28,548 bases of DNA, taken from positions 1 through 28,548 of the IMG/VR virus record IMGVR_UViG_3300036819_000213. The stretch is one strand, 5' to 3'. Below, piece after piece: positions 1 to 27,590 of the stretch (positions within the stretch are counted from its first letter, which is position 1; every line of letters begins with the position of its first letter). Below the pieces are notes generated by a model, which did not search any database, was not told where the DNA came from, and saw nothing but the letters and a program-made list of their open reading frames with translations. Source of the DNA: a virus. The position numbers and the translations under genes are program-made.

Positions 1-74
1 CCCGCTTTCATATCGACACGGATCTGATCGACCCGTTGATGGATCTCTCGCGTCAGAGTGGGGAACCGTCATCA
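1..74 (-). other. Window-edge stretch, possible start of a further minus-strand gene
   Basis: Just below the stop codon of the neighbouring minus-strand gene there is a tandem ATG ATG, and its reading frame stays open to the left edge. A second minus-strand frame is also open to the edge, contains charged helix-like residues and has an ATG at position 11. Too little is present to choose between them or to assign a product. I see no RNA gene or repeat here. Confidence 0.25.
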
Positions 75-356
75 TCAATCAGATTGTTCGGGCATACCTT
101 CGCCAGCGCTCTCAGCTTTCAGCGCCGGCTCCCGGCCGTGCGGGTCCGGATCGTGTTCGTGTTCGACCCTTATCCGCACGTCGATGGGCGCGTTGGCGAA
201 CCGCACCGAAACGGAGGCGAGCGACAGCGGCCGGTGCTTCTGTTCCTCCAGCCGCCGAATCAGCAACGCGGCAAATCTGAGCATGAGCGCCGGATCCTCC
301 TCGAGCGCGTCGAAGCTTACGTTGCGGCCAGGGTTCGGCACATCCAGCGAGGGCAT
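75..356 (-). CDS. Small hypothetical protein
   Basis: This 93-residue protein is not recognised. Residues 15-60 look like an amphipathic helix (ALMLRFAALLIRRLEEQK) followed by a beta-rich stretch (SVSVRFANAPIDVRIRVEHEHD) and a charged tail. That composition is more protein-like than the serine/arginine-rich translations of the other frames. The ATG at 356 is preceded by a weak AGG-containing site. It runs divergently from the HNH gene starting at 401, leaving only 44 bases between the two start codons, so the two promoters would overlap. It may belong to a group of small genes continuing beyond the left edge. The function is unknown, and the call rests on composition and context only. Confidence 0.5.
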   Translation of the reverse strand: MPSLDVPNPGRNVSFDALEEDPALMLRFAALLIRRLEEQKHRPLSLASVSVRFANAPIDVRIRVEHEHDPDPHGREPALKAESAGEGMPEQSD

Positions 357-400
357 ACGCCTATCATGCCCGATCGCAAATCGCTTACCCTCGGAATGAA

Positions 401-754
401 ATGCCGATCCGGCCTGAGCTCCGCAAATACTACGGCCCGGCCTGGCGAGCTTACCGGCTCGTCCTCATCGAAGCCCTCGGCCCGAACTGCTCAGTCTGCG
501 GCCGCGCGGTCCCGAAGTATCTGAACTTCGCGCACCTGACGCACGATCCCCGGCAATCCGCGCGCGTCGCCCCGATGTGTCCCTCGTGTCATTCCCGCTA
601 CGATACCCGCCAACGTGTGGCCATGACGCGACGAACCCGCGCCCGCCGTTACGGCCAGCTCTGGCTCTCGGTGGAACTGGAATTCGCACCGTATCCGGAA
701 AGCTTCTGGCCGCGGCGCGCGATCGCGGCGAGACAATTGATGCTGTTTGCGTAA
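401..754 (+). CDS. HNH-type zinc endonuclease-like protein
   Basis: This 117-aa protein carries the zinc-bound HNH arrangement: C30-x2-C33, then a NFAHLTHD segment (H45, H48), then C60-x2-C63-H64. The two CxxC pairs would hold a structural zinc, and the central histidines would coordinate the catalytic metal. The family cuts or nicks DNA. In phages such small HNH proteins are often found near packaging genes, or act as homing or restriction-like nucleases. Nothing here shows which role applies. The remaining residues are basic (MTRRTRARRYGQLW), which fits nucleic-acid contact. The gene is on the plus strand, opposite to the virion block, and is followed after 11 bases by another plus-strand gene, so the two probably form a two-gene unit. 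The match is to motif spacing only. Confidence 0.72.
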   Translation: MPIRPELRKYYGPAWRAYRLVLIEALGPNCSVCGRAVPKYLNFAHLTHDPRQSARVAPMCPSCHSRYDTRQRVAMTRRTRARRYGQLWLSVELEFAPYPESFWPRRAIAARQLMLFA

Positions 755-765
755 AACTGGGAACG

Positions 766-1503
766 ATGAACAGCCGGGAGGAGAAGATCGAAGCCGTCCA
801 GCGGGAAATAGCCGAAAAGATGGGCGTTCCATGGGAACGGTATGCCACGCGCGCACAGCAGGGCGTCGCGGTCGCGGGCTCCCTTCTTCGACTGCCGCGC
901 CGGCGTTGGTATCTGGGCTTCGCGTGGCGCCCTCGTGTCCAGCCCGAACCGTGGGCCGGGAACTCCCCTCAATGGGAATTGGATAAACAGGAAGAGGCGA
1001 CACAGCGGGATCTTGCGCACAACCGGTCGATCCTCGCTTCGATTCCGAAGGTAGAGACGCCCTCTCCGGATGGCTTGTCGGATTTCGTGGCCAGGTACCA
1101 GCGCGAAGCAAACCCGGTGCGCTTCCTTTCCAGACGGGGAGTCGAGGTTCTCGGAATGCGCGGCTACCGGCCAGTCTTTGGCCCGGACGGGCGACCGGTT
1201 ATGTTTGGCACCCTTCTCATGTGCGAGACACCGCAGGGAAAAGCCGGCGACGCCGCCATGCTTTTTGCGAATGGAGCGGACGAGGCGGATGAGGATGAGC
1301 CGAAAGCGAGCGGTCGGGGCGGCCATGGCGACGGCGACATATTTCGAATCACGTGGGACATCTGGATCTGGCGCGGCATCTTCGCGCTTTACCGGTACAC
1401 TCCACGCGGGGGCGGCTCACTCCGGCGCGGGCTGGAGCTGGTTACCGAGCGGCGCGGAGGAGATCCGAAGTCGGTGCGGCTCGCGTTTTACCCGCGACCG
1501 TGA
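766..1503 (+). CDS. Protein combining scaffold C-terminal motif and capsid-operon core domain
   Basis: This 245-aa protein starts at the ATG 11 bases after the HNH gene. Residues 3-38 (MGVPWERYATRAQQGVAVAG is the core) align without gaps to the extreme C-terminus of the scaffold-like protein at 24266-25024 (MGISHEAYAKRAKAGVAMGG), about 16 identities in 33. Residues around 104-152 (VLGMRGY, GxPV, FGTLLM) align to the core of the 307-aa protein at 23342-24265 (VLGMRGY, GDPV, VGTLIM), about 22 identities in 37. The two segments are in the same order as the two adjacent capsid-operon genes but joined in one frame. The C-terminal 90 residues are acidic, then basic and aromatic, and match nothing I recognise. 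It may be a capsid-interacting accessory protein or a fused, decaying duplicate. Function is unassigned. The reading frame is supported by both matches. Confidence 0.68.
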   Translation: MNSREEKIEAVQREIAEKMGVPWERYATRAQQGVAVAGSLLRLPRRRWYLGFAWRPRVQPEPWAGNSPQWELDKQEEATQRDLAHNRSILASIPKVETPSPDGLSDFVARYQREANPVRFLSRRGVEVLGMRGYRPVFGPDGRPVMFGTLLMCETPQGKAGDAAMLFANGADEADEDEPKASGRGGHGDGDIFRITWDIWIWRGIFALYRYTPRGGGSLRRGLELVTERRGGDPKSVRLAFYPRP

Positions 1504-1544
1504 CCCGCGCAGTGCAGTGAACCAGCGCAACTGCGCATCCTTGC

Positions 1545-1568
1545 GATACTGTACATCCGTTCAGTATC
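1545..1568. terminator. Inverted repeat between convergent genes, possible terminator
   Basis: GATACTG and CAGTATC form a perfect 7-bp stem with a 10-base loop. It lies where the plus-strand cassette and the minus-strand virion block converge and touches the stop codon of the large virion gene. A second, weaker pair (GCGCAGT at 1507, ACTGCGC at 1530) lies nearby. There is no T-run on either side, so a classic intrinsic terminator is not shown. Confidence 0.3.
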
Positions 1569-4500
1569 ACCGGCTCGACCGGCGCCGGTAAACCTCTCCG
1601 GTTTCCATCTGGTCGAGGACCGAATTCTCCCCGCGCGGAGTGTTTGGCCGAAGCACGCCGTCCAGCATGTGGGTTCCGGCCGGCGCGACGTGCGAAGGGG
1701 GATTGCCCGCGAACATCGTAGCGAGTCTCTCCGGCCAGGTATACTTATGAGCCTCAGGACCCCACAGCATATCGATCTGGTTCGTCAGGCTTAACGGCAC
1801 CGGCAGCAGCGACTTCGCGGCTGCGTACGCCGTGCGGGCGGAGCTGGCCAGCGGATTCATTCCCTTCGGTGCGATCTCATGCCCCAGGTAATCGCGATTG
1901 CCGATAATCTGAATCACGGTTCGGACCACCGGCGCGCCCTTGCCCGCAATCGAGCGCGCGATGCCCTGCAGCCCGTAATCGTATATGTTGGTGACCAGAT
2001 TCGTTGCATCGCCCGCCGGGCCTTTGAAAAAGACGTTCTGAAAGATATCCTCACCGTTCGAATCTTTGCCCATGTAAACCATCGTGGGCCGCTTTGACAA
2101 CTTACCCGACAGCATCAGGCTCATCGCCTGGGTTGCGACGGCCCCGCCGACCAGTGTGCGGGCCCAGAACATTCGAGCCATCTGTCCGGCTGGCCCCTTC
2201 TCAAACGCATACTTCACGTTGAAGACGTTCGAGAGTGTCCAGTCCGGAGCCAGGAACACCGCGCGGGCGATCTCGACCGTAGCTTTATTGAGCCCGATGT
2301 TTTCCCAATGCAGCCCGCCGTAAATGGCATTAACCTCTTTCGCGATGCCCTGCTTCGCGATCCTTACATCGCGGCCGTAGGCGTCGGGATTCTTTGCCAG
2401 CCACGCGGCCGTGTGCAGCTGGTAGTCGGTGACCTTGAACTTCCGCTGCAGATTCGCAAACGTGAAATCGCTGATGGCGTGCGCCGCCTGGTCCATGATC
2501 TTGACCGCGGCGTTTTGCCGCCAGATGTCGCCATACGTCGGGATGGAACCCGGCTGCATTGCGCGATACGCTTCGACTGTGTTGCCCTGGATCGAGGTTG
2601 TTCCCCCGTGCGCGATCATGTCCCGCTCGGCCGCCAGAAACCGGGGCGAGTCCCGATCCGCGGCCAGTGCCTTGGCCCAGCCTTTCGGCCCCATGTTCGC
2701 CAACGCCATGTAATTCTCAGTCGTCGCATGGAAGAAGGACAATCCCAGTTGCGCCGCTTTTGTCGCCGCCTGCGTGATACGCAGCGCATGCACAGCCACA
2801 ATTTCCGTCGTGAAATCGGGAGAGGTGATCGGCCTCAAAGCCTCTTCGATGAACTTCTTGACGAAAAGGCGTTTTTCTGTGACATCGGTCACCGGCTGGC
2901 CTTCTTCGTCGATTGCCCCGGTCGGGTAGGAAGACAACTGGCGGAATTCGTTCGACTGCGGGGCGATCTTCACCCATCCCTCCGGCGCCTGCCCCTGCAC
3001 GGTATATTTGCCGATATCAGACGCTTTCAGCTGGTCCTCGAGGAGCCGCGTCGCCCGCGATCGCGCGAAGTGGTCCTGCTGAATCGTGAACGCGTCGTGA
3101 ATGTTCATCGTCTTCGGGATCACGTCATTCATCACCGCGTCAAGCAGCGTCGGATAACTGCGCTCGTTCGAGAACCCGAAATACTTTCCGATCCGGCCGC
3201 CCATCGCCTGCCCGACGGCCTTCCGCGGCTGAGCGACTGTTCCCTCACCCTTGGGGTTAAGGACGTGCGGAACGTACGTTTCCGGATTCCAGTTCGTATC
3301 GAGGTTTCCGACCCGCTTTCCTTCCGCGCCGGTCGTCTCCGCCATGTTCGTGTAGAACTGGTCGACCGCCTTCATCCTGTCATCCATCGGGGCGAGCGCC
3401 CGTTCGATCGCCGGCCGCAGCGCCTGAATCCGCTTCATCACGCGGTCATAAATCGCGGGATCCTCGATCCTGACCAGATCCGGATGATAACCGCCCAGGA
3501 CAGATTTGAGCTCATCCGGCCGTCCCTTGTACTCGCGTGCGATCGCAATCGCCTCTGCCAGTTGGTCGACACCCGTTCGCCGGTTGCGCGATGGAAATGT
3601 AAGCTTGCGAACTTTCGCAATTCCCTGATTCGCGCGGGCTGCCCAGAGATCGCGCTCGCCGGTGAAGTAATGCCGGACCTGCTCGCCCCAGCGTTGCTCA
3701 CCCGGCGTGATCTTCGATCGCTCGAGTTCCTCGATCGCCGCGTCGCGCTTGGCTTTGAGCGCCCGCATGTCTTCGATCGACTCGCGCAGAAACGGCTCGA
3801 ACGCCCCGAACCCCGAGGCCATGTACGTGGTTCCGTTATCCTTGGAATCAGGACCACCCGGCGGAGGAGCTTGTCGTTCTGTCGCGTGAGTGCCGGGGAC
3901 GTCAATCATCCCCCCGGCAGATGGCCCGGTATCCTCTCCCGCCTTCCCGAATGCGGTCAGCAGCCAGGTCTTCGGGTCGTCCATCCAGTTGCGCCTGACA
4001 ATTGCGCTGTAGCCTTCTCCCCGCAATTGAATGGTGTTCTCGTTCCGCGAGGTCTCACGCAACCGGTCGAGCACTCCCTGCAGATCGGGAATAACTTCCG
4101 GATGGCGCTCCGATATCTTTGCCAGACCATAGCCTCTCGGGCCTGCCTTCCCCCAGACCAGATCGATATCACCCACCTGCGGATGATGGAGCGCGCCGAT
4201 CGCTTCGCCGTCCCGGCGGTGGCTGAGCTCCGCTATCGCCCCGAGTGCATTGTGATGGAAATTTCGCAGCACCGGTCCGTGCGGTCCGGTTTCCGGTTCC
4301 CCGGCCGCCGCAGGAGAAACAGCGGCCGGGACCTCGGAACCTCCTCCCGTCTCACGTGCACCACGGGAGGAAAGATCGGTGGGAGGCGCGGGCGGTTTCT
4401 CCGCTCCGAACGCATCCCGAAAAGCTTCCGCCGGCGTCGATTCGCCGAACATTGTCGGCTCTTTCGAATTCACATATTTCCGGAACGCCGAGACGACATC

Positions 4501-6585
4501 GTTAGGTTTGCCATCGCGCAGCAGCTCGGCCAGCCGTACGGCGCCGTCCGACCACTGGGGCGCTTCACCGAACATTCCTGCCTGCGCGACAACGTCGCCC
4601 ATGTTTTTGATCCCGTGCGCGGCGGCGAACTCCGTCAGGTCGATCGCTTCCCGCACGTCCGGCGTAATATCCCATTCCGGATTGCCCGCCACTTTCGAGA
4701 GCGGCGCCGCAACGCGCTCCAGCTTATTCCTGATCGATGCCGGCGTTCTCGAAATCTGATCCGAATCGCGGAAGAACTTCCCGAGCAGCGCTTTTGAAAT
4801 GCGGTCCTTCGCCGATTGCGTCAGGACGCCGGTCTTGCCGTCCATCAGCCCGGGCCGTTCCTGTTCGCTGAAGAAGCCCTCCGCGATCAGCCGGTTCACG
4901 ATCGCGGTACCGGACTTGCCGGTGAGCGCATCGTTCAGCGTGGCGTCGGGCCCGGCGTCCTCGATCGCGCCCGCAATGTGAGCCATCATCTCCGGTGACA
5001 TCTGGCCGGCGTCGGCCGCGGCGCGTTCGGAAGCGCTGAGCGCCGCGGTGCCGGTGATATTGGTCTTTCGCACAGCCCACTTGGATCCGCCCGGCAGCGC
5101 CGCGAGGCCTTCGGGTGTCGCGACCCTCACCAGCACCGGCTGCCGCATGGCCCGCACGGCTTCCGGACCGATCCCGAACTTCGCAGCCCTGCTCTCGAGC
5201 AGGGCGCGGTATTCCGCGGCCTTCTGGCCGTCGCGGCCGTAGACGCGCTGCAGGTGCATGGTCCGTGAATTACCGCCGAGGGCATTGCCGCGCTCATCGA
5301 TGAGCGGAGGCCCGTTCCCCATATCCGGGTTGTCGGTGATGTGATAGCGGGGCTCGAACCGTTCCTCGCTCGATTGTTCGACGACGCGTTGCTGATTCTC
5401 GGGCTTCGAGTAATCGCGCTCGTTGCGGCCTTCGTATTTCGGATTGGCGGAAAAAGTCTGACCGTTGTGCGACGACTGGATGTCGCTTAACTCGCGGACT
5501 TCGTATCGGGCCGGGATGGATCGCTCTTCGCCGGGGACGAGGACGTCCGTTCCCTCTCCAACATGCGGTCGCGAGCCTGGCGCAGGTTCTCCATGTACCG
5601 CGCGCCCTTCTCCAGCTGTTCCGGTGTCCAGCGGGCTAGCTGCCCGGGCGTCCACTGCTGCTGTTGGTTGTCCATCGTTCGCTCCTGCCGGTTGTTCAAG
5701 TTTACCCTGTGGCTCAGGCGTCGACGACACCACGTTCCAGCCGCCGTCCGCAGCCGGTGCAGCGACGGGCTGCGACGGCTGCGCTGGTTTCGTTGTCGGC
5801 CTGTACGGTTCGGCGCCAGTCGAATTTGCGGATGGCTCGGGAGCGGAGATTTTTGCTTTCTGAAACCGTGCCTTGAGGATCGGCTCGTACTTCGTGCGCA
5901 ACGCCACGACCGTCTTCGGAGTTTTCGCCGCGGCGAATAAACCAACCAGGTCGCCGGCGACCGCCGCGTATTCCTCCGGGATTCCGATCTTCTTCAGCAC
6001 CGCCTCGGCGCCCGTTTGCGCGGCTGCTCCGGTAGCGAGAGTGGCTGCGGTGGCAACGGGGGCAGTGGCGCCCGCCGCCACCATCAGCGGAGTGGCGGCT
6101 TCAAGACCTCCGCCGATAAGTTTGTGGAGGCCCCCGGCTTTGTTGCGCATGCCGGGCTCCGCCATCTGCGAGACGCCTTCACCGGCATGCACCACACCGG
6201 TGTACGGAGTGTCGAGTACGCTGAGCGGGCCGGCCTCTTTGCCGGGCTCCTGCCTGACGTACCTGCGCCCGGTGCGCGGGTTCTGATAAGTCGGCCCGTC
6301 GGGAGCGGAGAGTTTCTGCTGATCGGTCTGCAGGCCATACGGGAGCGCCACCGCCGGTACCGGAGGCGGATTCATCTCCATCTGCGATCGCGCATGAAGG
6401 ATGCCGGCGAGAGTAGCCGCGTGAGCGGTGGTCTGCTGATCGACCAGTTCGGGGCTCGGCAGCCCCGGCGCGCGTCCCAGCTCCGGGGCTGCGTCCGGCT
6501 GGGAGCCGACGACATCCCATCCTCCGGCAGCCGGAGCCGGCCTGTCCGGAATCGACGATACGACGTTCCAGCCCTGATCGCCCAT
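1567..6585 (-). CDS. Large polyvalent internal virion protein with DdrB/ParB-like and PBECR nuclease-like domains
   Basis: This 1672-aa protein is the largest in the window. Three copies of a GW(N/D)VV(S/G)S-type motif occur near residues 4, 22 and 284. An alanine-rich hydrophobic stretch lies near 155-190. Residues ~357-540 resemble the DdrB-like ParB-superfamily domain of phage polyvalent proteins, with the GPPLIDERGNALGGNSRTM signature. Residues ~770-880 resemble the phage Barnase-EndoU-ColicinE5/D-RelE-like nuclease domain: DIDLVWG, GLAKISERHPEVI and KTWLLTAF supply the usual His, Arg and Thr positions. The remaining ~800 residues are helical, with a hydrophobic segment near 1468-1492. 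The last gene of the virion block, it probably enters the cell with DNA, as T7 gp16 does; that is inference. I chose ATG 6585, 11 bases after the preceding stop, over an upstream start inside the preceding gene. No lytic transglycosylase motif was seen. Confidence 0.78.
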   Translation of the reverse strand: MGDQGWNVVSSIPDRPAPAAGGWDVVGSQPDAAPELGRAPGLPSPELVDQQTTAHAATLAGILHARSQMEMNPPPVPAVALPYGLQTDQQKLSAPDGPTYQNPRTGRRYVRQEPGKEAGPLSVLDTPYTGVVHAGEGVSQMAEPGMRNKAGGLHKLIGGGLEAATPLMVAAGATAPVATAATLATGAAAQTGAEAVLKKIGIPEEYAAVAGDLVGLFAAAKTPKTVVALRTKYEPILKARFQKAKISAPEPSANSTGAEPYRPTTKPAQPSQPVAAPAADGGWNVVSSTPEPQGKLEQPAGANDGQPTAAVDARAASPLDTGTAGEGRAVHGEPAPGSRPHVGEGTDVLVPGEERSIPARYEVRELSDIQSSHNGQTFSANPKYEGRNERDYSKPENQQRVVEQSSEERFEPRYHITDNPDMGNGPPLIDERGNALGGNSRTMHLQRVYGRDGQKAAEYRALLESRAAKFGIGPEAVRAMRQPVLVRVATPEGLAALPGGSKWAVRKTNITGTAALSASERAAADAGQMSPEMMAHIAGAIEDAGPDATLNDALTGKSGTAIVNRLIAEGFFSEQERPGLMDGKTGVLTQSAKDRISKALLGKFFRDSDQISRTPASIRNKLERVAAPLSKVAGNPEWDITPDVREAIDLTEFAAAHGIKNMGDVVAQAGMFGEAPQWSDGAVRLAELLRDGKPNDVVSAFRKYVNSKEPTMFGESTPAEAFRDAFGAEKPPAPPTDLSSRGARETGGGSEVPAAVSPAAAGEPETGPHGPVLRNFHHNALGAIAELSHRRDGEAIGALHHPQVGDIDLVWGKAGPRGYGLAKISERHPEVIPDLQGVLDRLRETSRNENTIQLRGEGYSAIVRRNWMDDPKTWLLTAFGKAGEDTGPSAGGMIDVPGTHATERQAPPPGGPDSKDNGTTYMASGFGAFEPFLRESIEDMRALKAKRDAAIEELERSKITPGEQRWGEQVRHYFTGERDLWAARANQGIAKVRKLTFPSRNRRTGVDQLAEAIAIAREYKGRPDELKSVLGGYHPDLVRIEDPAIYDRVMKRIQALRPAIERALAPMDDRMKAVDQFYTNMAETTGAEGKRVGNLDTNWNPETYVPHVLNPKGEGTVAQPRKAVGQAMGGRIGKYFGFSNERSYPTLLDAVMNDVIPKTMNIHDAFTIQQDHFARSRATRLLEDQLKASDIGKYTVQGQAPEGWVKIAPQSNEFRQLSSYPTGAIDEEGQPVTDVTEKRLFVKKFIEEALRPITSPDFTTEIVAVHALRITQAATKAAQLGLSFFHATTENYMALANMGPKGWAKALAADRDSPRFLAAERDMIAHGGTTSIQGNTVEAYRAMQPGSIPTYGDIWRQNAAVKIMDQAAHAISDFTFANLQRKFKVTDYQLHTAAWLAKNPDAYGRDVRIAKQGIAKEVNAIYGGLHWENIGLNKATVEIARAVFLAPDWTLSNVFNVKYAFEKGPAGQMARMFWARTLVGGAVATQAMSLMLSGKLSKRPTMVYMGKDSNGEDIFQNVFFKGPAGDATNLVTNIYDYGLQGIARSIAGKGAPVVRTVIQIIGNRDYLGHEIAPKGMNPLASSARTAYAAAKSLLPVPLSLTNQIDMLWGPEAHKYTWPERLATMFAGNPPSHVAPAGTHMLDGVLRPNTPRGENSVLDQMETGEVYRRRSSR

Positions 6586-6596
6586 CGTGTTCTCTG

Positions 6597-8099
6597 CTAC
6601 TGAGCGCCGCCGCTCACGTAAGTCATCGACCCGTCGGCCGCCTTGCGCCACGTCTGGCCATTGCCGAACTTGTGCAGCCCCGGCGCGAGGCTTTTCGTCA
6701 CCGATGCCGGCGGCGCGGGACGGTTCTGCTGTGCAGCCGGTGCTGCGGTGGGCTGCGCTGGTTGCTGCCGTAGTTGCCGGGGTGGCTGTGCAGGTGTTGT
6801 TTTCGGAGCGAATTCACCCCAGCCCATTGACTTCCGCACAGCCCTGGCCTTCGTCTGCAGGTCGAGAGCTTTCCGCTGAGCCTGAGCGGAGTTGTCGAGA
6901 AAACTGGCGCGGAGGGCCGCTGTCATGGTTCGCGGAGACCCATCCGTGATCTCTCCCGTTTTCGAGTTGTAGCTCGGCAGAAAGACAGTGCTGTTGTCAG
7001 GGTTCTTCGTCGGATCCGCCAGTGTCGCATACCGCTGATGCAAGTCCCACTGGTCTTTTTCCCTGCCCTGCAGATCGTCGTGCTTCGCGGCCACAGCCCC
7101 CTGGCTCTTCATCTGGGCATCGAGGCGCTTTCGACTCGCATCTTCCGCCTTGTCCTGTTCCCGCTCTTTGGCGCGAGCCGCAATGTTTGCCTGTGCGTCG
7201 GTTGCGGGCCGCATTTGTCTCTGCAGACTGAGAGCGGCATTTGCCCGGGCCACTTCCTGCGGGTCCGATGTCGGATCGGTTGCGATCCGGATCCAGTCGT
7301 TCTCATCCTCTTTGCGCGGCTGCTTTTCCGCCTTCTCCGAGGGCGCGAAATTGAGTCCCCGCCCAACCTGTGCTGCGCCGGGTTGCACAGGTTGCTGCGC
7401 TGCCTGCTGCAATGGCTGTCCGGGCTGGCCGGGATCGTCGGAGGAATCGAACGGACCGCCTGGCGCTCCGCCGTTCGACTGCGAGCCGCCGCCCAGATTC
7501 AGCATCGTCACGGTCTTCGTCTTTTTGCCGATCGCCACCGGAACCGGGTTCCCCTGCGCGTCGCGGAATTTTCCGGAGACGTCGATGTCGTACGGCTCGT
7601 CCTTCGGCTGCGCTTCGTTCAGCGCCATCATGAGCGAATGCGAAGCCTCCTGGGTAATCGGTGTCTTGCCGTCCCACGCTCCGCCGTTCTTCAGCGCTTC
7701 GGCGAGGCCTCCGGTCGGCACAAATGTCTTTCCTGACTGCGCGTCCCGCTCGGTCTGTGTCGGCACGTAATACCGTTTGCCGCTAGCCGGTTCCGTTATT
7801 GTTTCGCCGGCGCCCTGCGCGGCCGTTTGAGTGCGATCGATGAAGTGCGCTCCGGTGGACGTCGTCGACGGTTTCTCGACATCGACCGGAACGGCGCCGC
7901 GGTTGATCAGGTCCATGTGGTCGACAAATGCCTGATGATCGAGCGCCTGCTGGTTCAACTGCTGCTGCCGCTGCAGCTGCGCCTGCTGATTTGCGGCCGC
8001 ATTCAGGCCATTGAGCAGCGAGGACGCCGCCGAAGCATACCCGGCTGCGGCGCCCAGTGATGGATTGTTGCCGGAAGGCAGAGCAGGAAAAGAGCCCAT
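6597..8099 (-). CDS. Gln/Pro-rich internal virion protein (hypothetical)
   Basis: This 500-aa protein starts with a helical Ala/Gln-rich segment (QQAQLQRQQQLNQQALDH near residues 38-55) typical of coiled-coil ends of phage internal proteins. A mixed central region, a Gly/Pro/Gln-rich linker (residues ~210-255), a charged helical region (~265-400) and a second Pro/Gln/Ala-rich linker (~430-470) follow. It ends in a small module (LHKFGNGQTWRKAADGSMTYV). It lies between two other low-complexity virion genes, 4 bases after the upstream stop, with a strong GGAGGC ribosome site. By position it would correspond to the middle member of the T7 gp14-gp15-gp16 ejection set. No enzymatic motif is visible. 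The assignment is from composition and order, not from a recognised family. Confidence 0.62.
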   Translation of the reverse strand: MGSFPALPSGNNPSLGAAAGYASAASSLLNGLNAAANQQAQLQRQQQLNQQALDHQAFVDHMDLINRGAVPVDVEKPSTTSTGAHFIDRTQTAAQGAGETITEPASGKRYYVPTQTERDAQSGKTFVPTGGLAEALKNGGAWDGKTPITQEASHSLMMALNEAQPKDEPYDIDVSGKFRDAQGNPVPVAIGKKTKTVTMLNLGGGSQSNGGAPGGPFDSSDDPGQPGQPLQQAAQQPVQPGAAQVGRGLNFAPSEKAEKQPRKEDENDWIRIATDPTSDPQEVARANAALSLQRQMRPATDAQANIAARAKEREQDKAEDASRKRLDAQMKSQGAVAAKHDDLQGREKDQWDLHQRYATLADPTKNPDNSTVFLPSYNSKTGEITDGSPRTMTAALRASFLDNSAQAQRKALDLQTKARAVRKSMGWGEFAPKTTPAQPPRQLRQQPAQPTAAPAAQQNRPAPPASVTKSLAPGLHKFGNGQTWRKAADGSMTYVSGGAQ

Positions 8100-8103
8100 C
8101 AGA

Positions 8104-8613
8104 TCATTTGCCTCCTACTGGTGCGCCGAGGCTGGCTCCAGCCCCGACTCCCCAGCTCGATCCACTTCCGTAACTGGAGCCGCTTCCCGTCGATCCGAGG
8201 GATGTGAACGCGTAGTTCAGCGCGGCAAGCAGGTTGGTCGAGTTGAGGCTATTTTGCTGCCCCGCGAAGTTGGCCGCGTTTGTTCCCAGCTGGCTTTCCC
8301 GCCCGAGCTCGCCTTGCAGGCTTGTCTGACCGGTCTGCCCGCTCTTTCCGAACCCCCGCTGTGCGAGGAACTGGTTCACCCGGTCCGTCAGCCCGCTCGA
8401 CGTCTTGTTGATCTGGTCCGCCGCCTGGGTTTCCTCCGCCGTGGTTCCCGGCGTCAGCGTGCCCCCGCTCGCCCCGGCGAGGTCCTGCGACAGCAGACCG
8501 CCCGTCTGGTTCTGCACGGCCGTCTGTACCGGCGAGAAAGTTCCCGACGTGGTGGAACTGCCCGTCGAGCTGCTGCTCGTGCCCCCTGTCGATCCTCCGA
8601 GCGTCAGTCCCAC
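8104..8613 (-). CDS. Gly/Ser/Thr-rich small virion protein (hypothetical)
   Basis: I place the start at GTG 8613 because GGAGG sits six bases upstream, giving 169 residues beginning GLTLGGSTGG. The N-terminus is Gly/Ser/Thr-rich. The centre is helical (DQINKTSSGLTDRVNQFLAQRGFGKSGQTG), followed by a Gln/Asn/Ala helix and a Gly/Ser-rich tail. Such proteins are common next to internal virion proteins in short-tailed phages, and this one would match the gp14 position of T7. It overlaps the C-terminal 365 bases of the upstream GNAT reading frame in another frame, which is unusual. The in-frame upstream ATG at 8664 has no ribosome site and lies in conserved GNAT sequence, so I reject it. Exact function is unknown. 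Confidence 0.6.
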   Translation of the reverse strand: MGLTLGGSTGGTSSSSTGSSTTSGTFSPVQTAVQNQTGGLLSQDLAGASGGTLTPGTTAEETQAADQINKTSSGLTDRVNQFLAQRGFGKSGQTGQTSLQGELGRESQLGTNAANFAGQQNSLNSTNLLAALNYAFTSLGSTGSGSSYGSGSSWGVGAGASLGAPVGGK

Positions 8614-9109
8614 GTTTTTCCTCCATGTAAAAATCCTCTCTCGTGACCGCCAGGAGAACCGCATCGGCCGGTTTCCCGCCGCGCATGGTTGCCGCGCGAA
8701 GCGTACCCTCGACCTTCGCCCCGAGCCGTTTCGCGAGCGCGATCGCGAGCCGGTTCCAGGCCGGAACGAAGGCCTGTATCCGAATCAACCCGGTCTGTCC
8801 CTCGAACATGAGCCGCGCGGCTTCGCGCAGTTCCGCGGCCGGAATGCCCCACAGCCGTTTCGCAAGCAGAATATGGGCGGTGGCCACCACGGGCGAAGCC
8901 CGTTCGAAGATGATCACGCCTGCGATATTGCCGCCGTCTTTGCATAACCCGAATGTCCTCGCGCCGCCGAACGTCCCGCTGTAGTGTTCGACAAATGCAT
9001 CCGGCGTGCCCGGGAAGAAGTCGTCGGCCAGCTGTGCCCGGGTTCGCTCCGCCCAGCCATAAGCGAGCGGCCACGCCCAGGCAGGAAACGGCTCGATAAT
9101 TGTCAGCAT
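8249..9109 (-). CDS. GNAT-like acetyltransferase in virion block
   Basis: The first ~161 residues look like a complete GNAT N-acetyltransferase: an N-terminal strand-helix, GGNIAGVIIFERA (beta-4), the AELREAARLMFEG helix region, and a C-terminal GAKVEGTLRAATMRGGKPADAVLLAVTREDFY end. The family transfers an acetyl group from acetyl-CoA. In T7-like phages a GNAT-fold protein (gp13) lies at this position, between nozzle and internal proteins. The ATG at 9109 overlaps the stop of the spike gene by 7 bases. No stop follows the expected domain end. The frame runs on for 125 Gly/Arg/Asp-rich codons that are out of frame with the next gene and read like its shadow. Either the protein has a long tail, or a stop was lost or a base is miscalled near 8611-8626. 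Confidence 0.72.
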   Translation of the reverse strand: MLTIIEPFPAWAWPLAYGWAERTRAQLADDFFPGTPDAFVEHYSGTFGGARTFGLCKDGGNIAGVIIFERASPVVATAHILLAKRLWGIPAAELREAARLMFEGQTGLIRIQAFVPAWNRLAIALAKRLGAKVEGTLRAATMRGGKPADAVLLAVTREDFYMEEKRGTDARRIDRGHEQQLDGQFHHVGNFLAGTDGRAEPDGRSAVAGPRRGERGHADAGNHGGGNPGGGPDQQDVERADGPGEPVPRTAGVRKERADRSDKPARRARAGKPAGNKRGQLRGAAK

Positions 9110-16431: not shown

Positions 16432-17108
16432 CAGGATTTCTTCTTCCCGCTAAGCCGGGACCGGTCGAAGAGAGCGAGCTCCGCCGGCACTGAATCGTAT
16501 CCCTGGCCGATATTCCGCGCGCGCACAAAACCGGCGTACTCGGTTGCAGCGTCGAGAAACTCGCCGAGCAGGGGCAGCACCGATGCGAGGGCTTCTCCGC
16601 CTTCCATCTGGCGAACGCGATAGATCGCGTACGGGACGTAGACCGGGTGGTATTCAGCCGGCGTCTCGGGCACGTCGCCATCATCGCTAAGCGCCAGTGG
16701 CGCACGGGCGTAAGTCAGGCTCACCGCCGTATCGACGGCCGGCTGCCGGTAGAGCGCGATCAGATCCGCTCCGATCGCGGCATATCGGTACGGAGCCCCG
16801 GGCGACTGCGGCCACTGAGAATCGAGAGCCCACAATTCGCCGAGCCGGGCCGGGCGCACCTTCGCGCCGCCGGCGAGCGTGATCCGTAGGGGCACGATCC
16901 AGTCCGTGAAGAGCGGAAGCATGTGGAAGAACGTCGTATTTGTGGTCGGGGTCCAGGAGGCGGTAGTTTCGAGCGCGAGAGTCAGGAGGCAAAAGAGGCG
17001 GTTCGCCTCGTTGATCGCCGCGATGATTTCAGCGGTCGGATAGAACACCGGCGCGGCTACTTCGTTCAGGCGCTGCGACACGAGCCCGTACATCGTTGCG
17101 AGGGTCAT
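16431..17108 (-). CDS. Head-tail adaptor-like protein 2
   Basis: This 225-aa protein starts with MTLATMYGLVSQRLNEV and a helix (AEIIAAINEANRLFCLLTLA), the usual opening of phage adaptor proteins that place residues around a portal ring. A beta domain with TWTP-like and aromatic strands follows. The end is helical (YHPVYVPYAIYRVRQMEGGE, GEFLDAATEYAGFVRARN) and very basic (RSRLSGKKKS). The layout resembles DUF6682-type phage adaptor proteins, which I recall but cannot verify here. It starts 6 bases after the previous stop and runs by one base into the next gene. It is the second of three such genes. Its role is likely head-tail joining. Confidence 0.57.
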   Translation of the reverse strand: MTLATMYGLVSQRLNEVAAPVFYPTAEIIAAINEANRLFCLLTLALETTASWTPTTNTTFFHMLPLFTDWIVPLRITLAGGAKVRPARLGELWALDSQWPQSPGAPYRYAAIGADLIALYRQPAVDTAVSLTYARAPLALSDDGDVPETPAEYHPVYVPYAIYRVRQMEGGEALASVLPLLGEFLDAATEYAGFVRARNIGQGYDSVPAELALFDRSRLSGKKKS

Positions 17109-17114
17109 ACGGGT

Positions 17115-18065
17115 TTACGGAACGTTCGTCGGCAGATTCGAAGGGCCGAAGCCGCGCCGGTATCCCCGCGCCGCCCGCGCCATCCGGTGCCGCGTGAAAC
17201 GGGGCGCCATCTTCACGGAAGCTTTCACGCGCCGCTGTGTATGCTCGACCAGCAGCAGCCGCGCGAGTTCCTGGCTGAACTCTTCCTCGTAACCTTTGGC
17301 CTTTGTGAATCTCTCCTGGTGAAGCGCGATATCGGACCGCACACCCGCCAGAAGCACCGTGCTGCTGACGAACGGCAACGGCGATCCGCTGGTGTTGCCG
17401 CCGTCGAACGCCAGCGCCGCGCGCAGGTATTCGAGCGGAAACCCGCGAGCCTGCAGCGGCGGCGGGTTGAGTTCGATCTGATGGAGCACCGGCGGCGAGG
17501 TCTCGGGGCTGTCGTCATACTCGGCCCACCCGGCCGGGTAGCCGACCCTCGCACGCGATCCGGCCGATCGGTCGAGGCCGTCCTTCGTGAAAGACTCCAT
17601 CGGCAGTCCGGTGATCGGATCGAGCACCGTGACAACCGAGCGGCAGTCGGACGGCAGCGCATAAATGTGCTGCATGAAAACGTAGGAGGAACCGGCGTAA
17701 ACGGTTCCGGTGGCCGCGGCGCCGTTCCCTTCGTAAGGCCGGTCGAGAGTGAGGGAGGTCCCGCTCACATACGTGGCCGCGTAAATCACCGTGTCGCCCG
17801 GGACGTAGAATCGTTGCCCGGTGATGGCGCTGGTCCACGCCGTGCCGGAACCGGCGACCGAGGAGGAGCCGACCGTGACCGTAACGGTATCGGTGGCCGA
17901 TTCGTATGCCGCCTGGGTCTGGAGGGTTGCATGGGCCTTGAGGCCCTGCCAATCCGTCGCTTCGAGGACCTGCTCGTACCGGGTGTTCAGCCACTCATCG
18001 AGAAGGTCGAGCGAGACGTCCGGAGCCGATGTCTGCAGTTGAAGTCTGAGTTGCCCCCAGGTCAT
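17115..18065 (-). CDS. Head-tail adaptor-like protein 1
   Basis: This 316-aa protein opens with MTWGQLRLQLQ and a helix (LDLLDEWLNTRYEQVLEATDW), the classic start of gp11/gp4-type adaptor proteins. A beta module of about 70 residues (TVTVTVGSSSVAGSGTAWTS...) follows. The second half carries YALPSDCRSVVTVLDPITG, an LNPPP turn and a helical end with many basic residues (RRVKASVKMAPRFTRHRMAR). A good GAGGATAG ribosome site lies before ATG 18065. It is the first of three adaptor-like genes and directly follows the fibre gene, so the head-tail joining cluster is interrupted on its upstream side by a receptor-binding gene. The basic C-terminal tail may contact DNA or the portal. Confidence 0.6.
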   Translation of the reverse strand: MTWGQLRLQLQTSAPDVSLDLLDEWLNTRYEQVLEATDWQGLKAHATLQTQAAYESATDTVTVTVGSSSVAGSGTAWTSAITGQRFYVPGDTVIYAATYVSGTSLTLDRPYEGNGAAATGTVYAGSSYVFMQHIYALPSDCRSVVTVLDPITGLPMESFTKDGLDRSAGSRARVGYPAGWAEYDDSPETSPPVLHQIELNPPPLQARGFPLEYLRAALAFDGGNTSGSPLPFVSSTVLLAGVRSDIALHQERFTKAKGYEEEFSQELARLLLVEHTQRRVKASVKMAPRFTRHRMARAARGYRRGFGPSNLPTNVP

Positions 18066-20098: not shown

Positions 20099-21151
20099 TT
20101 ACCGGACAGCCCTCGTGGTGGCCGCGCTCCGGAACGGCTGAGGGGCGAGGTCGAGGAAATCGGTCCAACGATAAAAGCCGTTCTGGTTGTGACGCTCGAG
20201 CGAATCGACCGCGTCAGCGATCGCGCACGGGTCCGTGATCAGGGAACGTCCCACGCAGGCGACGTCGAGCGCATCGTCCGATTGGGCCACCCAGCGGTCG
20301 GGCACCCAGTCGATCGCGGAGGAGACGACCGAGGGAACGCCCTTCGAGATGCCGTCCGCGGTCACCATGTTGAAGCTCTCGGTATAGCTCACCTGGATCA
20401 TCAGATGCAGGGTCCCGATGAGTTCGAGAAACTCCGGCCATGCCGACCAGTTGAGGATGCGCAGCGAAACGCCGGCCTGCTGCCGGATCAGTTCCCGGAT
20501 CGCGCGCTCGATCGACCCGCCGCCGTCCGGACGGCCGCCGTTCATCCAGAACTCGACCGGTACCCTCAGCTGCTTCCCGATCGATATCGCCGCGGCGGCA
20601 GCCGTCAGGAAGTTCTTCAGCGGCCGGCAGGCGCCAAACGCGCCGATGCGCAGCGTGCCGCCGTTATAGAGTGGCCGCGAGACCGGTACCGTGGAATCGA
20701 GATTGTAGAGGTTGGGCAGGTACAAGGGGTGCGTGCTGTAAGCCGCGATCAGCCAGTCGACAAATTTCGTGCTGTTGCCGGAGACGCGGAAATTCAGCAG
20801 CTCCTTCTGCAGGTGGATGTAGCTCCCCAGCAGCTGCACGCCATTCGAATCCGCCTGCAGAAAGCCGACGTTCGAGTGGATGTTGACGGCGAACTCAACG
20901 CCAGGGTAGCGGATCACGAGCTTACCCAGATCGAGCACCGGCAGCCATGCCGCCGAAATGACCACATGGGTGGTGGCGGGATTATTCGCAAGAAATGCGT
21001 CCAGATCCACGATGGAGTTGATGGCGAAGGCCCGCACGGCGACGCCATGGCGTTTGAGAACTTTGGCCGTATTCAGCGCGGAGACGCCGAGGCCGATATG
21101 AGAGATGTTCGCGTTGGCCGCGAAGTTTTTGTAGCAAAGTACGAGGTTCAT
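20099..21151 (-). CDS. GT-B fold glycosyltransferase
   Basis: This 350-aa protein looks like a family-4-type glycosyltransferase. The N-terminal Rossmann half (GLGVSALNTAKVLKRHGVAV; THVVISAAWLPVLDLGKL) would bind the acceptor. The C-terminal half has LRIGAFGACRPLKNF and the donor-binding region YTESFNMVTADGISKGVPSVV near residues 252-275, the usual E-rich loop of GT4-like enzymes. These transfer a sugar from a nucleotide donor. The gene sits between head genes and the fibre gene, so it may glycosylate virion proteins or alter the host surface. Which one is not visible. The start at 21151 has an AGAAGGA site about 14 bases upstream, further than usual. No signal peptide or membrane helix is seen. 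Confidence 0.72.
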   Translation of the reverse strand: MNLVLCYKNFAANANISHIGLGVSALNTAKVLKRHGVAVRAFAINSIVDLDAFLANNPATTHVVISAAWLPVLDLGKLVIRYPGVEFAVNIHSNVGFLQADSNGVQLLGSYIHLQKELLNFRVSGNSTKFVDWLIAAYSTHPLYLPNLYNLDSTVPVSRPLYNGGTLRIGAFGACRPLKNFLTAAAAAISIGKQLRVPVEFWMNGGRPDGGGSIERAIRELIRQQAGVSLRILNWSAWPEFLELIGTLHLMIQVSYTESFNMVTADGISKGVPSVVSSAIDWVPDRWVAQSDDALDVACVGRSLITDPCAIADAVDSLERHNQNGFYRWTDFLDLAPQPFRSAATTRAVR

Positions 21152-21193
21152 GCCGCCCGTTTTTTCCTTCTCCCGGTCTTAAGCTTCCGGTTG

Positions 21194-21811
21194 TTAAGCG
21201 TTCTGAGGCACTACGTAATACACGAAAACTTCGATTACACCGGCGGTCAGAGGGCCGGTCGCGACAACGATCGAAATGCTGCCCGAGGCGGACATCTTTA
21301 CCGGCGCGGCAAACGTGGGAACCCCGTTGATAAGGGCATCCAGCGACAGCGTGGCTTTCGCGGTTGCCGCGAGAATCGAGGTGGAGGAAGAACCGGCCGT
21401 GGTGCCGATCCCGACCGTCGCCGATCCGGCTGCCGTAACCGCGGTGGGTACGTTCACGGTGGCGCCGATGAGGATCGCGTGGGATGGGATGACCGCGTTC
21501 AGCGCAGGCGTGCAGCTTGCGCCGCCGTCCGTCGCAAAATTGTAGACGGCATGCGCCACGCCAAGCGTGCCCAGGCCCGCCGCCGATCCGGGACCGCTCG
21601 CAATGGCTCCGGCGCTGTTGATCGAGAACAGCACGACGCCGGCGGCTGTCAGGATCTCAAACGCGTCCACCGACTGCGAAGACGGAAGGAAGATCTTTAC
21701 CGGTACCTCGCTCCCGGAGCCGACACTCGGCTCATGCCCGGCTCCGCCGGCGCCGGGGGCGACGACGTGCAGTTCTTTGACTCTGGTCGGTTTCTGCGAT
21801 GATCCGGACAT
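21194..21811 (-). CDS. Predicted virion structural protein
   Basis: This 205-aa protein has a proline/glycine-rich N-terminus (VKELHVVAPGAGGAG) and a long beta-rich domain rich in Ala, Gly, Ser and Thr (VNVPTAVTAAGSATVGIGTTAG; SISIVVATGPLTAGVIEVFVYYVVP). The alternating strands with AVTAAGSATVGIGT and LTAGVIEVFVYY resemble phage proteins often annotated as structural or decoration proteins. It lies 9 bases after the major capsid gene with a strong GAGGGAG site. That position suggests a decoration or head-completion protein. No catalytic motif is seen. The assignment is by composition and neighbourhood. Confidence 0.58.
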   Translation of the reverse strand: MSGSSQKPTRVKELHVVAPGAGGAGHEPSVGSGSEVPVKIFLPSSQSVDAFEILTAAGVVLFSINSAGAIASGPGSAAGLGTLGVAHAVYNFATDGGASCTPALNAVIPSHAILIGATVNVPTAVTAAGSATVGIGTTAGSSSTSILAATAKATLSLDALINGVPTFAAPVKMSASGSISIVVATGPLTAGVIEVFVYYVVPQNA

Positions 21812-21820
21812 AACTCCCTC

Positions 21821-22741
21821 TTAGCTCGATGGCACGCCGGCGAGGCCGTAAAAGCCGTTGAACCCGCAGGCGAACCGCATCCAGCCGGCGGTCTTCACGC
21901 TGCGCGAGTTGAAGTCGAGATCGTGGACCGTGTTGAACGGCTCACGGTCGTACCACCGCAGTTCCGTGTCTGCCACGTTCCCTTCGACGAACCACGCGTC
22001 CGGATCCGTGAGGTAGTCCCAGACCATCCACGAATCGAACGACGGCAAGCCGGAGCGCCGTTTGAACGCGTTGATCGCGCGGTTCGCCGTGTCCGGACGG
22101 TCGACGCCGCCCAGCAGCTCCGCCCCAACGAATTCAAGATTCTGCGGGAAAATGGCCTTCTTCGGAGGGATGCGGATTTTCTTTCCGCGGTGGTCGACGG
22201 TTGACCGCATGAGCGTCAGCACGAGCTGCATCGACGTCACATCCGGGTCCGTGGCATACGACAGCCGGTTTGACTGCGTGCCGCCGCCGATCAGCGGATG
22301 CGCGGTGTTGAAGAGCGAGACGCCGTCGGGCCCGGTAGACGAAGTAAAGCCGGTGTTGATCACATTCGCGGCCACAACTTCTTTGGTTTCCTTCGCGCTT
22401 CGGCCGAGCTCCGTCGCGAGCTTCTGCACAACGCCGAACTTGTCGTCATCCATCGCGACTTTCGTCACGCGGAAGCCCAGCGAATACTGGGCGTGGACGT
22501 AAGTCTTGTTGAAGCCCGGCAGCGCCTGGTCGTAGACAGTGTCTTTGCCTTCCGGGACGACGGAGAACTGCCCGAAGCCGGTGACTTCGGTTGTCTGCTC
22601 GATCGAGCGCGAGGAGCTCTCCATACGGAAGACCTCGCTGTATTCGTCCGGAAACTCCGAGTACTTCGTCATGACTACCTCGTCGATCGCGGGCAGCATG
22701 GCCTGCAGGAAGAGGTCCGGGAAAAGTGTGCGGATAAACAT
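21821..22741 (-). CDS. Probable major capsid protein
   Basis: This 306-aa protein is of the length and layout of phage major head subunits. It has an N-terminal helix (LFLQAMLPAIDEVVMTKY), the IEQTTEVTGFGQFSVVPEG segment, a long alpha helix (KFGVVQKLATELGRSAKETK) with the FTSSTGPDGVSLFNTAHPL loop, and a C-terminal beta/helix part ending in AGWMRFACGFNGFYGLAG. I recall a similar FNTAHPL loop from HK97-fold capsids of the Mu gpT-like group, but cannot run a search. The gene lies downstream of the scaffold-like gene and a decoration-like gene, the usual head order. An AGAGG ribosome site is 6 bases upstream. No protease gene is visible, so the N-terminus may be uncleaved. Confidence 0.75.
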   Translation of the reverse strand: MFIRTLFPDLFLQAMLPAIDEVVMTKYSEFPDEYSEVFRMESSSRSIEQTTEVTGFGQFSVVPEGKDTVYDQALPGFNKTYVHAQYSLGFRVTKVAMDDDKFGVVQKLATELGRSAKETKEVVAANVINTGFTSSTGPDGVSLFNTAHPLIGGGTQSNRLSYATDPDVTSMQLVLTLMRSTVDHRGKKIRIPPKKAIFPQNLEFVGAELLGGVDRPDTANRAINAFKRRSGLPSFDSWMVWDYLTDPDAWFVEGNVADTELRWYDREPFNTVHDLDFNSRSVKTAGWMRFACGFNGFYGLAGVPSS

Positions 22742-23341: not shown

Positions 23342-24265
23342 CTACCTTTCGACATTGAAACCGACTTCGCGCGAACGTCCGAACGACGCGCGGTCGGCGG
23401 TGTCGGTGGCCGTTACCATCTCGCCCTGGCCGAGCACGCCCAGGCCGGGGTGATTTCCCTCCTCGCGTATCGCCCGCACCGCAACGTCCTCGAATTGCGC
23501 CTGACTGTCACGCACCTTCTCTTCGGACTCCTCGGCATAATGCCGGCGCCGCGCTTCCGCCATGCGCAGCGGAATCTCCGCCATGATGAGCGTCCCGACT
23601 TTCACCGGGTCGCCCCTCTCATCGATTACAGCCTTGTAACCTCGCATGCCGAGCACGCCCACGCAGCGATCGGATAAAAACTTCGGAGCCATTCCGGGAC
23701 TGCCGTACTTCAAAACGGCCTCCTCCATAGGCTGCGCGAAGATCATGGCGTCGGAACGGTCCGCTTCCACTTCGACGGTCCGCTGCGGGATCCGCATGAT
23801 CCGGGTGTGAAACGCCATAGCCACAGCCGCGACGCCGAACCGGGCGATCGCCGCACGCAACCCTGTCCGCATGATCGGGTCCGGAACGGCATTCTCTTCT
23901 TTCAGCCGGATGGCTTCCGCCGTCGCATTGGCGTAGCGCTCCAGCCCGATATTCTCGATCGATGCCTTCACTTCCGGGCAGTTGATCAGCAGCGGATCCG
24001 GGCCGTAAACGACCCGCGTGTACGTAGGGATCGCGTCGCCGAAAGTCTTCCTGTCCCACTCTTCAGAGAGGAACTCTACGGGGTCTTCGGTCGGCCGGTC
24101 CGGATCCGGATCGGGATCTTTGAGGTTGAGGCCGAGGTCGGTAGCCAGCGCCTTCTCGGAGTTTTTGGCGTCGATGCGATCCTGACGTTCGGCCAGAATA
24201 CGCTGGTTAGCGACGGCTGCCGGGTCCGCCACCGGCGCTCTTCGGTTATTGCGGGGAGCCGCCAT
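23342..24265 (-). CDS. Unknown capsid-operon protein with VLGMRGY core
   Basis: This 307-aa protein is not recognised. The N-terminus is basic, then acidic (LKDPDPDPDRPTEDPVEFLSEEW, with the DPDPDPD run at ~50). The centre is helical (ERYANATAEAIRLKEENA; AAIARFGVAAVAMAFHTRIM). Near residues 196-233 is the conserved core VLGMRGYKAV, GDPV, VGTLIMAEIP, repeated in the plus-strand protein at 766-1503. The tail is helical and charged. ATG 24265 abuts the TAA of the scaffold-like gene with no gap. In this position between scaffold and decoration/capsid genes it could be a head-assembly factor, but nothing proves it. Confidence 0.6.
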   Translation of the reverse strand: MAAPRNNRRAPVADPAAVANQRILAERQDRIDAKNSEKALATDLGLNLKDPDPDPDRPTEDPVEFLSEEWDRKTFGDAIPTYTRVVYGPDPLLINCPEVKASIENIGLERYANATAEAIRLKEENAVPDPIMRTGLRAAIARFGVAAVAMAFHTRIMRIPQRTVEVEADRSDAMIFAQPMEEAVLKYGSPGMAPKFLSDRCVGVLGMRGYKAVIDERGDPVKVGTLIMAEIPLRMAEARRRHYAEESEEKVRDSQAQFEDVAVRAIREEGNHPGLGVLGQGEMVTATDTADRASFGRSREVGFNVER

Positions 24266-25024
24266 TTATTTCCGGCCGCCTCCCATAGCAACTCCAGCCT
24301 TTGCCCGTTTCGCGTACGCCTCGTGCGAGATGCCCATGCGGTCCGCAATGTGTTTCTGCTCGGCCGTGAGCTCTTCGTCTTCCTCAGTCCCGCCGGCAGG
24401 ACGGCGATCGCCGCCCTCGCCCGCCTGGGCGCGGATACGAGCCAGCCGCAGCGCTTCCTTCTCTTCCTTGCCGGCTTCGCCGCCCGGAAGCTTGATTTTT
24501 CCGCCGCGAATGAAGGCGAGTTCGGTCTGCCGCGCCGCCATTTCCATCGCGATCGCCTGAGGCGTTCCGCCCTTCACCAACTCGCCGTAAGCGAGCGCGG
24601 TGGCCTTGAAGAACTCCGAATCCTTTTTCTTCAGGTCCGGATACTCGCCCATCAGTTCCTGCTCTTTGCTCAACGTCGCGGCACGGGAGTTGATGAGGCC
24701 TTCGACCTCTTCTTTTTTGATGAAGCCGCGTCTGGAAGCGAGCTCGTCGAAACCTTTCGCGCCCCGGGTCGTAATGGCTTCGAGGACGTCCGGCTCGTCT
24801 TCAGCCGGTTCGGAGGCTTTAGCCGCAGGCTTCTCTTTCGCTCTGTCGGCCCAGAACTGCGCGGTGCGTAACGCCTCCGCGCTCTGCTCTTTCAGCTCCT
24901 CGATCTGCCTCTGAAGGGCGGCGGTATCGACAGCTGCGTCTGCGGCAGCAGCGGCCGGTGGCGCACCTGCTGCTGCGGCGGGGACCGCGGGTGCACCGGT
25001 AACGATGGCAGTAGAAGGCGTCAT
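24266..25024 (-). CDS. Scaffold-like head assembly protein
   Basis: This 252-aa protein has the composition of a phage scaffold: an Ala/Pro-rich N-terminus, then a long charged helical/coiled-coil region (LQRQIEELKEQSAEALRTAQ; LINSRAATLSKEQELMGEYP). It ends with ELTAEQKHIADRMGIS and EAYAKRAKAGVAMGGGRK, a two-helix end. Many phage scaffolds and Mu-type protease-scaffolds finish with such an LT.EE....MG(I/L)...EY motif, which contacts the coat. The start overlaps the zinc-protein stop (ATGA), and the stop touches the next ATG. Absence of a protease domain suggests a pure scaffold. The 766-1503 protein repeats this C-terminal motif. Confidence 0.66.
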   Translation of the reverse strand: MTPSTAIVTGAPAVPAAAAGAPPAAAAADAAVDTAALQRQIEELKEQSAEALRTAQFWADRAKEKPAAKASEPAEDEPDVLEAITTRGAKGFDELASRRGFIKKEEVEGLINSRAATLSKEQELMGEYPDLKKKDSEFFKATALAYGELVKGGTPQAIAMEMAARQTELAFIRGGKIKLPGGEAGKEEKEALRLARIRAQAGEGGDRRPAGGTEEDEELTAEQKHIADRMGISHEAYAKRAKAGVAMGGGRK

Positions 25025-27327: not shown

Positions 27328-27590
27328 TTCCCGTCGTCAGGCAACTTTTCGAGACCGCCGTCCAACACCCAGAGCGCGACCTGCAGGCGGGAATCGAGCT
27401 TCAGCGCCTCCATGGTTGCCGACACGTAGACTTTAACGGTTCCGGTGGAGATGCCCATGCGGCCCGCGATCTCTTTATTTCTGCACCCTTCACTTATGAG
27501 ACGGGCAACCCGCCGCAGCCGGGGCGCTAGCCGTCCGTTTGAAACCGCGCCGGGGCGGGTGTCAGGTTTGGCGCTGTCATAGGTCACCAT
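27324..27590 (-). CDS. LuxR/GerE-type HTH transcription regulator
   Basis: This 88-aa protein is essentially a LuxR-type DNA-binding domain: RLRRVARLISEGCRNKEIAG (residues 25-44), then RMGISTGTVKVYVSATMEAL, the four-helix GerE motif with the conserved G, N-K-E-I-A and T-V-K positions. No receiver or ligand-binding domain is attached, so it is a standalone regulator. It is the first of a chain of small genes leading into the head operon and could control it. A 9-bp inverted repeat lies just upstream of its start codon (27593-27623), overlapping its ribosome site, so self-control is plausible. Confidence 0.72.
   Translation of the reverse strand: MVTYDSAKPDTRPGAVSNGRLAPRLRRVARLISEGCRNKEIAGRMGISTGTVKVYVSATMEALKLDSRLQVALWVLDGGLEKLPDDGK

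Follow-up and report, generated by a model that had tools for sequence, protein, structure and literature searches.

A candidate phage accessory protein resembling two neighbouring head proteins in one chain

The DNA analyzed here (hereafter the window) comes from a soil phage and is the whole of IMG/VR virus record IMGVR_UViG_3300036819_000213, 28,548 bp classified as linear; like most related records, it is a fragment. Its minus strand carries the same head-to-tail gene series as related contigs, in the order scaffold-like gene, the 307-aa P0003, a 188-aa protein, a Mu gpT-like major capsid gene, and tail genes down to position 1567. Relatives of the capsid protein at 67–81% identity were found in Bryobacterales and Bryobacteraceae metagenome-assembled genomes (MAGs), plus one MAG labelled Streptosporangiaceae, and the host is thus probably an acidobacterium; the nearest cultured phages reach capsid identities of only about 30–35%. 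The plus-strand gene P0001 and the features to which it was compared are as follows.

401–754, plus strand: HNH endonuclease-like gene (phrog_589, E 5.5e-5), kept in relatives.
766–1503, plus strand: P0001, the joined protein (245 aa), best-scoring coding frame in 4 of 4 segments tested.
766–891, plus strand: scaffold-tail-like motif, P0001 residues 1–42, a predicted helix-turn-helix with pLDDT of about 88–95 over residues 1–30.
1069–1245, plus strand: P0003-like core, P0001 residues 102–160, 'FLSRRGVEVLGMRGYRPV..GRPVMFGTLLMCETP'.
1321–1500, plus strand: C-terminal family-specific region, P0001 residues 186–245, common to P0001 and its homologues P0004 and P0005.
1504–1545: block conserved with the sibling phage contig L087, beginning directly past the P0001 stop; right edge of an exchangeable cassette.
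1567–6651, minus strand: large tail-region gene (1694 aa), convergent with the P0001 cassette.
21821–22741, minus strand: major capsid protein (Mu gpT-like / Phage_capsid_4).
23342–24265, minus strand: P0003, head-cassette protein, between the scaffold and major capsid genes in all relatives.
23537–23746, minus strand: P0003 core matched by P0001.
24266–25024, minus strand: scaffold-like protein P0002 (252 aa), its C-terminus weakly like that of the Mu I protein.
24272–24388, minus strand: scaffold C-terminal motif matched by the P0001 N-terminus.

Elsewhere on the minus strand, separate parts of the 1694-aa tail-region protein match separate relatives, a pattern suggestive of mosaicism or gene fusion. 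A 350-aa gene (20099–21151) has homologues, 42–79% identical, whose position varies among relatives, being upstream of the scaffold in some and downstream of the capsid in others; it is a mobile accessory gene within the late region.

The P0001 ATG lies 11 nt past the stop of the HNH gene and opens a frame of 245 codons. A first-pass annotation, made from the sequence, had described this protein as a joined and shortened copy of two adjacent head genes, and both resemblances held up. At the N-terminus, residues 2–38 align with residues 213–249 of the scaffold-like protein at 16/37 identical positions (BLASTP, E 3e-7), and profiles of the joined family and the scaffold family with no shared members also match (HHalign, prob 91, E 1.1e-6). 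When an HMM built from 22 scaffold tails only was run on all six-frame ORFs of the collected sequences, P0001, P0004, and P0005 were the top three non-scaffold ORFs (4e-7 to 7e-5), and the next non-scaffold match, a Pelagibacter phage protein at the scaffold position, scored 0.16. P0001 has no scaffold body: the motif is N-terminal and comprises only about 40 scaffold residues, an architecture unlike that of a phage scaffold.

The second resemblance is to P0003. Residues 119–196 of P0001 align with P0003 residues 195–287 at 33/93 identical positions (BLASTP, E 7e-11), the 22 identities first reported for the core being present over about 38 residues, and the joined and P0003 families again match as profiles with no shared members (HHalign, prob 98, E 9e-15). 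The region common to both proteins reads 'FLS.R..VLG.RGY..V...G.PV..GTL.M.EIP'. P0001 thus has the conserved core of about 55–65 residues that characterizes the P0003 family, without the family's location between the scaffold and decoration or capsid genes. It also differs from P0003 in having neither the N-terminal ~170 residues nor most of the long helix that follows the core, and in its C-terminus. A short relative of the P0003 family, gp38 of Pelagibacter phage HTVC023P, occupies the same gene position and gave a weak profile match (E 2e-4 for that single comparison). As initially described, the order of the two head genes is kept in P0001, on the opposite strand and ~22 kb away from them. 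Because P0001 carries segments of two neighbouring genes in the right order, it likely derives, on these alignments, from adjacent head genes.

The last ~60 residues of P0001 match neither the scaffold nor P0003, and constitute a third conserved region, beyond what the first-pass annotation could see. An AlphaFold2 model of P0001 had a pLDDT of 72 and a pTM of only 0.40. At the N-terminus it places helices at residues 2–19 and 23–41, with block means of 88–95 over residues 1–30 and lower values at the end of the second helix; in the core it predicts helix-strand-helix-strand-helix, the same element order as P0003 178–270, P0003 rows in the alignment having helped; and at the C-terminus it predicts a helix plus a beta hairpin with moderate confidence. 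Foldseek searches with P0001 (viral) and P0003 (viral and PDB) returned nothing below E 0.05, and a sequence profile search of the PDB gave no credible match, no solved structure fitting. The end of the P22 scaffold is a helix-loop-helix that binds coat, and removing its 11 C-terminal residues abolishes binding (PMC9965877). In the model, the P0001 hairpin is predicted to resemble this coat-binding tail.

Two relatives were identified in other phages. P0005, found by a DNA pattern built on 'IAE..GV.W.RY', is a full-length homologue of P0001 (28% over 226 aa, E 8e-16) in a divergent phage, IMGVR_UViG_3300001538_000005, which retains separate genes for a short P0003 (201 aa), a scaffold (304 aa), and a capsid protein. 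The layout repeats that of the window, with P0005 on the plus strand at 21.5–22.2 kb and its own head genes on the minus strand at 0.1–3.2 kb, i.e., about 19 kb apart. One gene before P0005 lies a GroES co-chaperonin gene, followed after P0005 by an integrase gene:

L132 7923–8246 (G277 20923–21249), plus strand: GroES co-chaperonin gene (Cpn10, E 2e-23), outside the head-gene region.

GroES was found beside the joined gene in the P0005 phage only, and the 12 other records searched, several of them fragments, had no GroES. In two cultured phages with related capsids, Alcaligenes phage vB_Af_QDWS535 and Pelagibacter phage HTVC023P, GroES immediately precedes the gene at the scaffold position. 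The third homologue, P0004, was found by scanning MAGs and belongs to a Bryobacteraceae (Acidobacteriota) prophage. It keeps the N-terminal motif and the C-terminal region without the P0003-like core, which is present in both P0001 and P0005; the core is therefore not indispensable, being absent from one of the three known members. By eye, positions 1–9100 of the P0004 prophage contig (L128) hold host-like genes, including one for an ScpA-like protein, which would mark an integration site in a Bryobacteraceae chromosome.

The three proteins share a private variant of the N-terminal motif, 'IAE..GV.W.RY..RA', that scores above scaffolds. In leave-one-out HMMs of the first 62 residues, the omitted member ranked first (E 7e-11 to 7e-10), above every scaffold, which indicates that the family has its own variant of the motif at the N-terminus, distinct from scaffold tails in general. 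Leave-one-out HMMs of the C-terminal region likewise ranked the omitted member first among all ORFs each time, at E 0.03–0.33, with pairwise shuffle p of 0.004–0.01, i.e., homology of modest strength. The family appears rare: an exact-pattern search of viral contigs with P0001 alone returned no relatives, none were found for P0001 in phage and plasmid collections or for a P0001–P0003 alignment in GTDB genome contigs, and a search of viral contigs with P0001 and P0003 relatives yielded 36 loci, all ordinary P0003 homologues. Among 396 genomes across the phylum, P0004 was the only member, and the joined protein is absent from the 12 nearest records despite their head genes, several of these records being 31–47 kb long. 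The count of three known members is one that pattern-based searches would underestimate.

We then considered how P0001 came to its present site. In the sibling contig L087, the convergent tail gene and an HNH gene of 80% identity are both retained, and a different small gene of about 50 codons lies where the window has P0001, with likeness resuming directly past the stop of each small gene. (A resemblance of the L087 small ORF to the P0001 linker was rejected as chance, shuffle p 0.52.) P0001 is thus a one-gene cassette between the HNH gene and the 3′ end of the tail gene. P0004 sits between a sigma-like gene and the large terminase gene, overlapping both, and in relative G001 these two genes are directly joined. 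At both sites, a single gene has been cleanly inserted or exchanged for another. Nuclease genes, HNH genes included, are frequent markers of exchange borders in phages (PMC10448857). The same comparison bears on whether P0001 could be an assembly chimera or a misjoined contig end, as its location within 1.5 kb of the end of a linear contig might suggest, together with the strand of the HNH gene, which is that of the head genes in more distant relatives but the opposite one here. However, L087 has the same convergent arrangement of HNH and tail genes, and homologues of P0001 occur in unrelated contigs, so that we regard an artefact as extremely improbable.

Substitutions between P0001 and its counterparts are concentrated at third codon positions. 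Identities at positions 1/2/3 were 0.58/0.62/0.34 for the P0001 and P0003 cores, 0.62/0.74/0.29 for P0001 and the scaffold motif, and 0.71/0.63/0.42 for P0005 and its own P0003, indicating that selection has maintained P0001. On this sequence evidence, the joined form is old, and selection has preserved it. The first-pass annotation had offered a decayed, functionless fused duplication of the head genes as the simpler account, and P0001 is indeed shorter than both parents, has a linker and a C-terminus without match to either, and is missing from the nearest records. This account is nevertheless largely refuted, and now very unlikely: the P0001 ORF is intact, each quarter of it scoring best in the annotated frame, P0005 is full-length in a divergent phage, divergence in both motif and core falls on third positions, the family-specific ends are conserved, and the cassette edges are gene edges. 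With two relatives in other phages, P0001 is better described as a conserved accessory gene than as a broken duplicate, and as such it probably acts on phage head assembly.

In a tree of 38 cores, the P0005 core was sister to the P0003 of its own phage (support 98/87). The branch of the P0001 core was very long, its closest sequences by identity being those of the window-type subfamily; a single clade of P0001 and P0005 was rejected, marginally and on 68 columns (p-AU 0.028). By similarity, P0005's own P0003 ranks best among cores and P0001's own ranks third, so that tracking of the cognate head protein is clear for P0005 alone. For the motif, the P0001 phage's own scaffold is the best fit (1/40 in similarity ranks), and that of the P0005 phage a poor one (rank 35/40). 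From the tree placement and these own-phage ranks, the core appears to have been captured, converted, or tuned separately in the two phages, and the motif not uniformly so.

These features also bear on what P0001 might do other than modify head assembly. One alternative is that it is cargo: the motif would serve as nothing more than an address tag by which P0001 enters the procapsid, and the C-terminal domain, arginine-rich in P0001 and P0004, would act within the head or after delivery into a new host cell. In phage T4, internal proteins carry a short N-terminal capsid targeting sequence that loads them into the prohead, and this literature precedent resembles P0001, by description, in the N-terminal tag only, P0001 adding the core of a second head protein. 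The placement of the motif at one end and an unrelated conserved domain at the other fits such a role, as does the retention of tag and C-terminal domain without the core in P0004. A further protein in the Bryobacteraceae prophage, encoded just downstream of the terminase gene, contains a motif faintly like the scaffold tail (scaffold-tail HMM, E 1.4), which hints that this motif may be reused as a tag:

L128 (G021:C659) 16962–17468, plus strand: protein with motif 'LTDGERRLCAQMGISEAAFALRRAEM'.

Cargo loading, however, leaves unexplained why a P0003-like core should be present at all and why that of P0005 tracks its own P0003, and we consider it unlikely.

The position of P0004 immediately upstream of the large terminase gene, a usual place for the small terminase, raises another alternative, in which the helix-turn-helix would contact DNA and not coat, making the family DNA-binding regulators or packaging factors, e.g., an accessory terminase or regulatory subunit. 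The scaffold motif region (24327–24355) and a LuxR-type helix-turn-helix gene of the window (27448–27476) also share a 29-nt stretch at 86% identity, a likeness that is probably due to chance or common helix-turn-helix composition. Yet Pfam and PHROGs gave no helix-turn-helix or TerS match for any joined-family member, the matches of motif and core are to scaffold tails and a head-cassette protein, respectively, and in relatives no P0004 separates the sigma-like gene from the terminase gene, which together make a DNA-binding role quite improbable.

A role in modifying head assembly is consistent with the predicted helix-turn-helix, the predicted order of core elements, and the tracking of its own P0003 by the P0005 core. 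The comparison first drawn to satellite capsid-remodelling proteins does not extend to the element itself: the window record is no satellite, since it encodes its own capsid, scaffold, and tail proteins as tailed phages ordinarily do. Among such proteins, SaPI CpmB is a non-scaffold protein that outcompetes the 80alpha scaffold through a coat-binding motif common to both (PMC12409344). By its described features, P0001 is similarly a non-scaffold protein with a motif of the cognate scaffold, here a putative coat-binding one, as in capsid-size redirectors of the CpmB/Rcm type. Unlike these satellite proteins, it is phage-encoded, with the motif N-terminal, and it further contains a second head protein's core as well as a C-terminal domain of its own. 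The predicted two-helix turn likens P0001 to the scaffold end of P22 gp8 and Mu I type, which the window's own scaffold tail weakly matches on the Mu side, but P0001 has the motif at its N-terminal end and lacks the scaffold body. P4 Sid and PLE TcaP are accessory external scaffolds that alter heads by binding coat (PMC10945586). P0001 may be analogous to these as an accessory protein proposed to act through the coat, although Sid and TcaP are external, satellite-encoded, and have no likeness to scaffold tails. A short literature search turned up no phage protein that mimics two head proteins within a single chain.

Taken together, we propose that P0001 was built from the coat-docking tail of the scaffold and the core of the adjoining head gene, added a C-terminal domain of its own, and was then kept by selection. 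Its N-terminal helix-turn-helix would dock on the inner coat surface in the manner of scaffold tails, its core would take the place of P0003, and its C-terminal domain would bring a new activity or block a normal contact; if so, P0001 would compete in or modify head assembly at substoichiometric levels. The consequence of docking might be competition, a change in size, interference with a relative, or the loading of cargo. The target may be the carrier phage's own heads, affecting size or timing, or the heads of a co-infecting relative; the second is made somewhat likelier by a distribution that is patchy and moron-like. We hold as about evenly balanced the overall reading that P0001 is a rare accessory protein of Acidobacteriota (Bryobacterales-type) phages that docks like a scaffold, mimics P0003, and modifies or competes in head assembly. 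A more specific version is possible, if tentative, namely a mimic whose core has been re-tuned to each carrier's head protein, by repeated capture, gene conversion, or coevolution, and which serves as a built-in brake or as a weapon against relatives.

Phage satellites, SaPIs among them, are known to use scaffold mimicry as a weapon. In the present case the conserved accessory gene belongs to a phage, and its single-chain product appears to mimic two neighbouring head proteins. If P0001 acts on the coat, it would offer a short, testable handle on scaffold–coat docking and on the 307-aa head protein, and would suggest that phages, like their satellites, use head-gene mimics.
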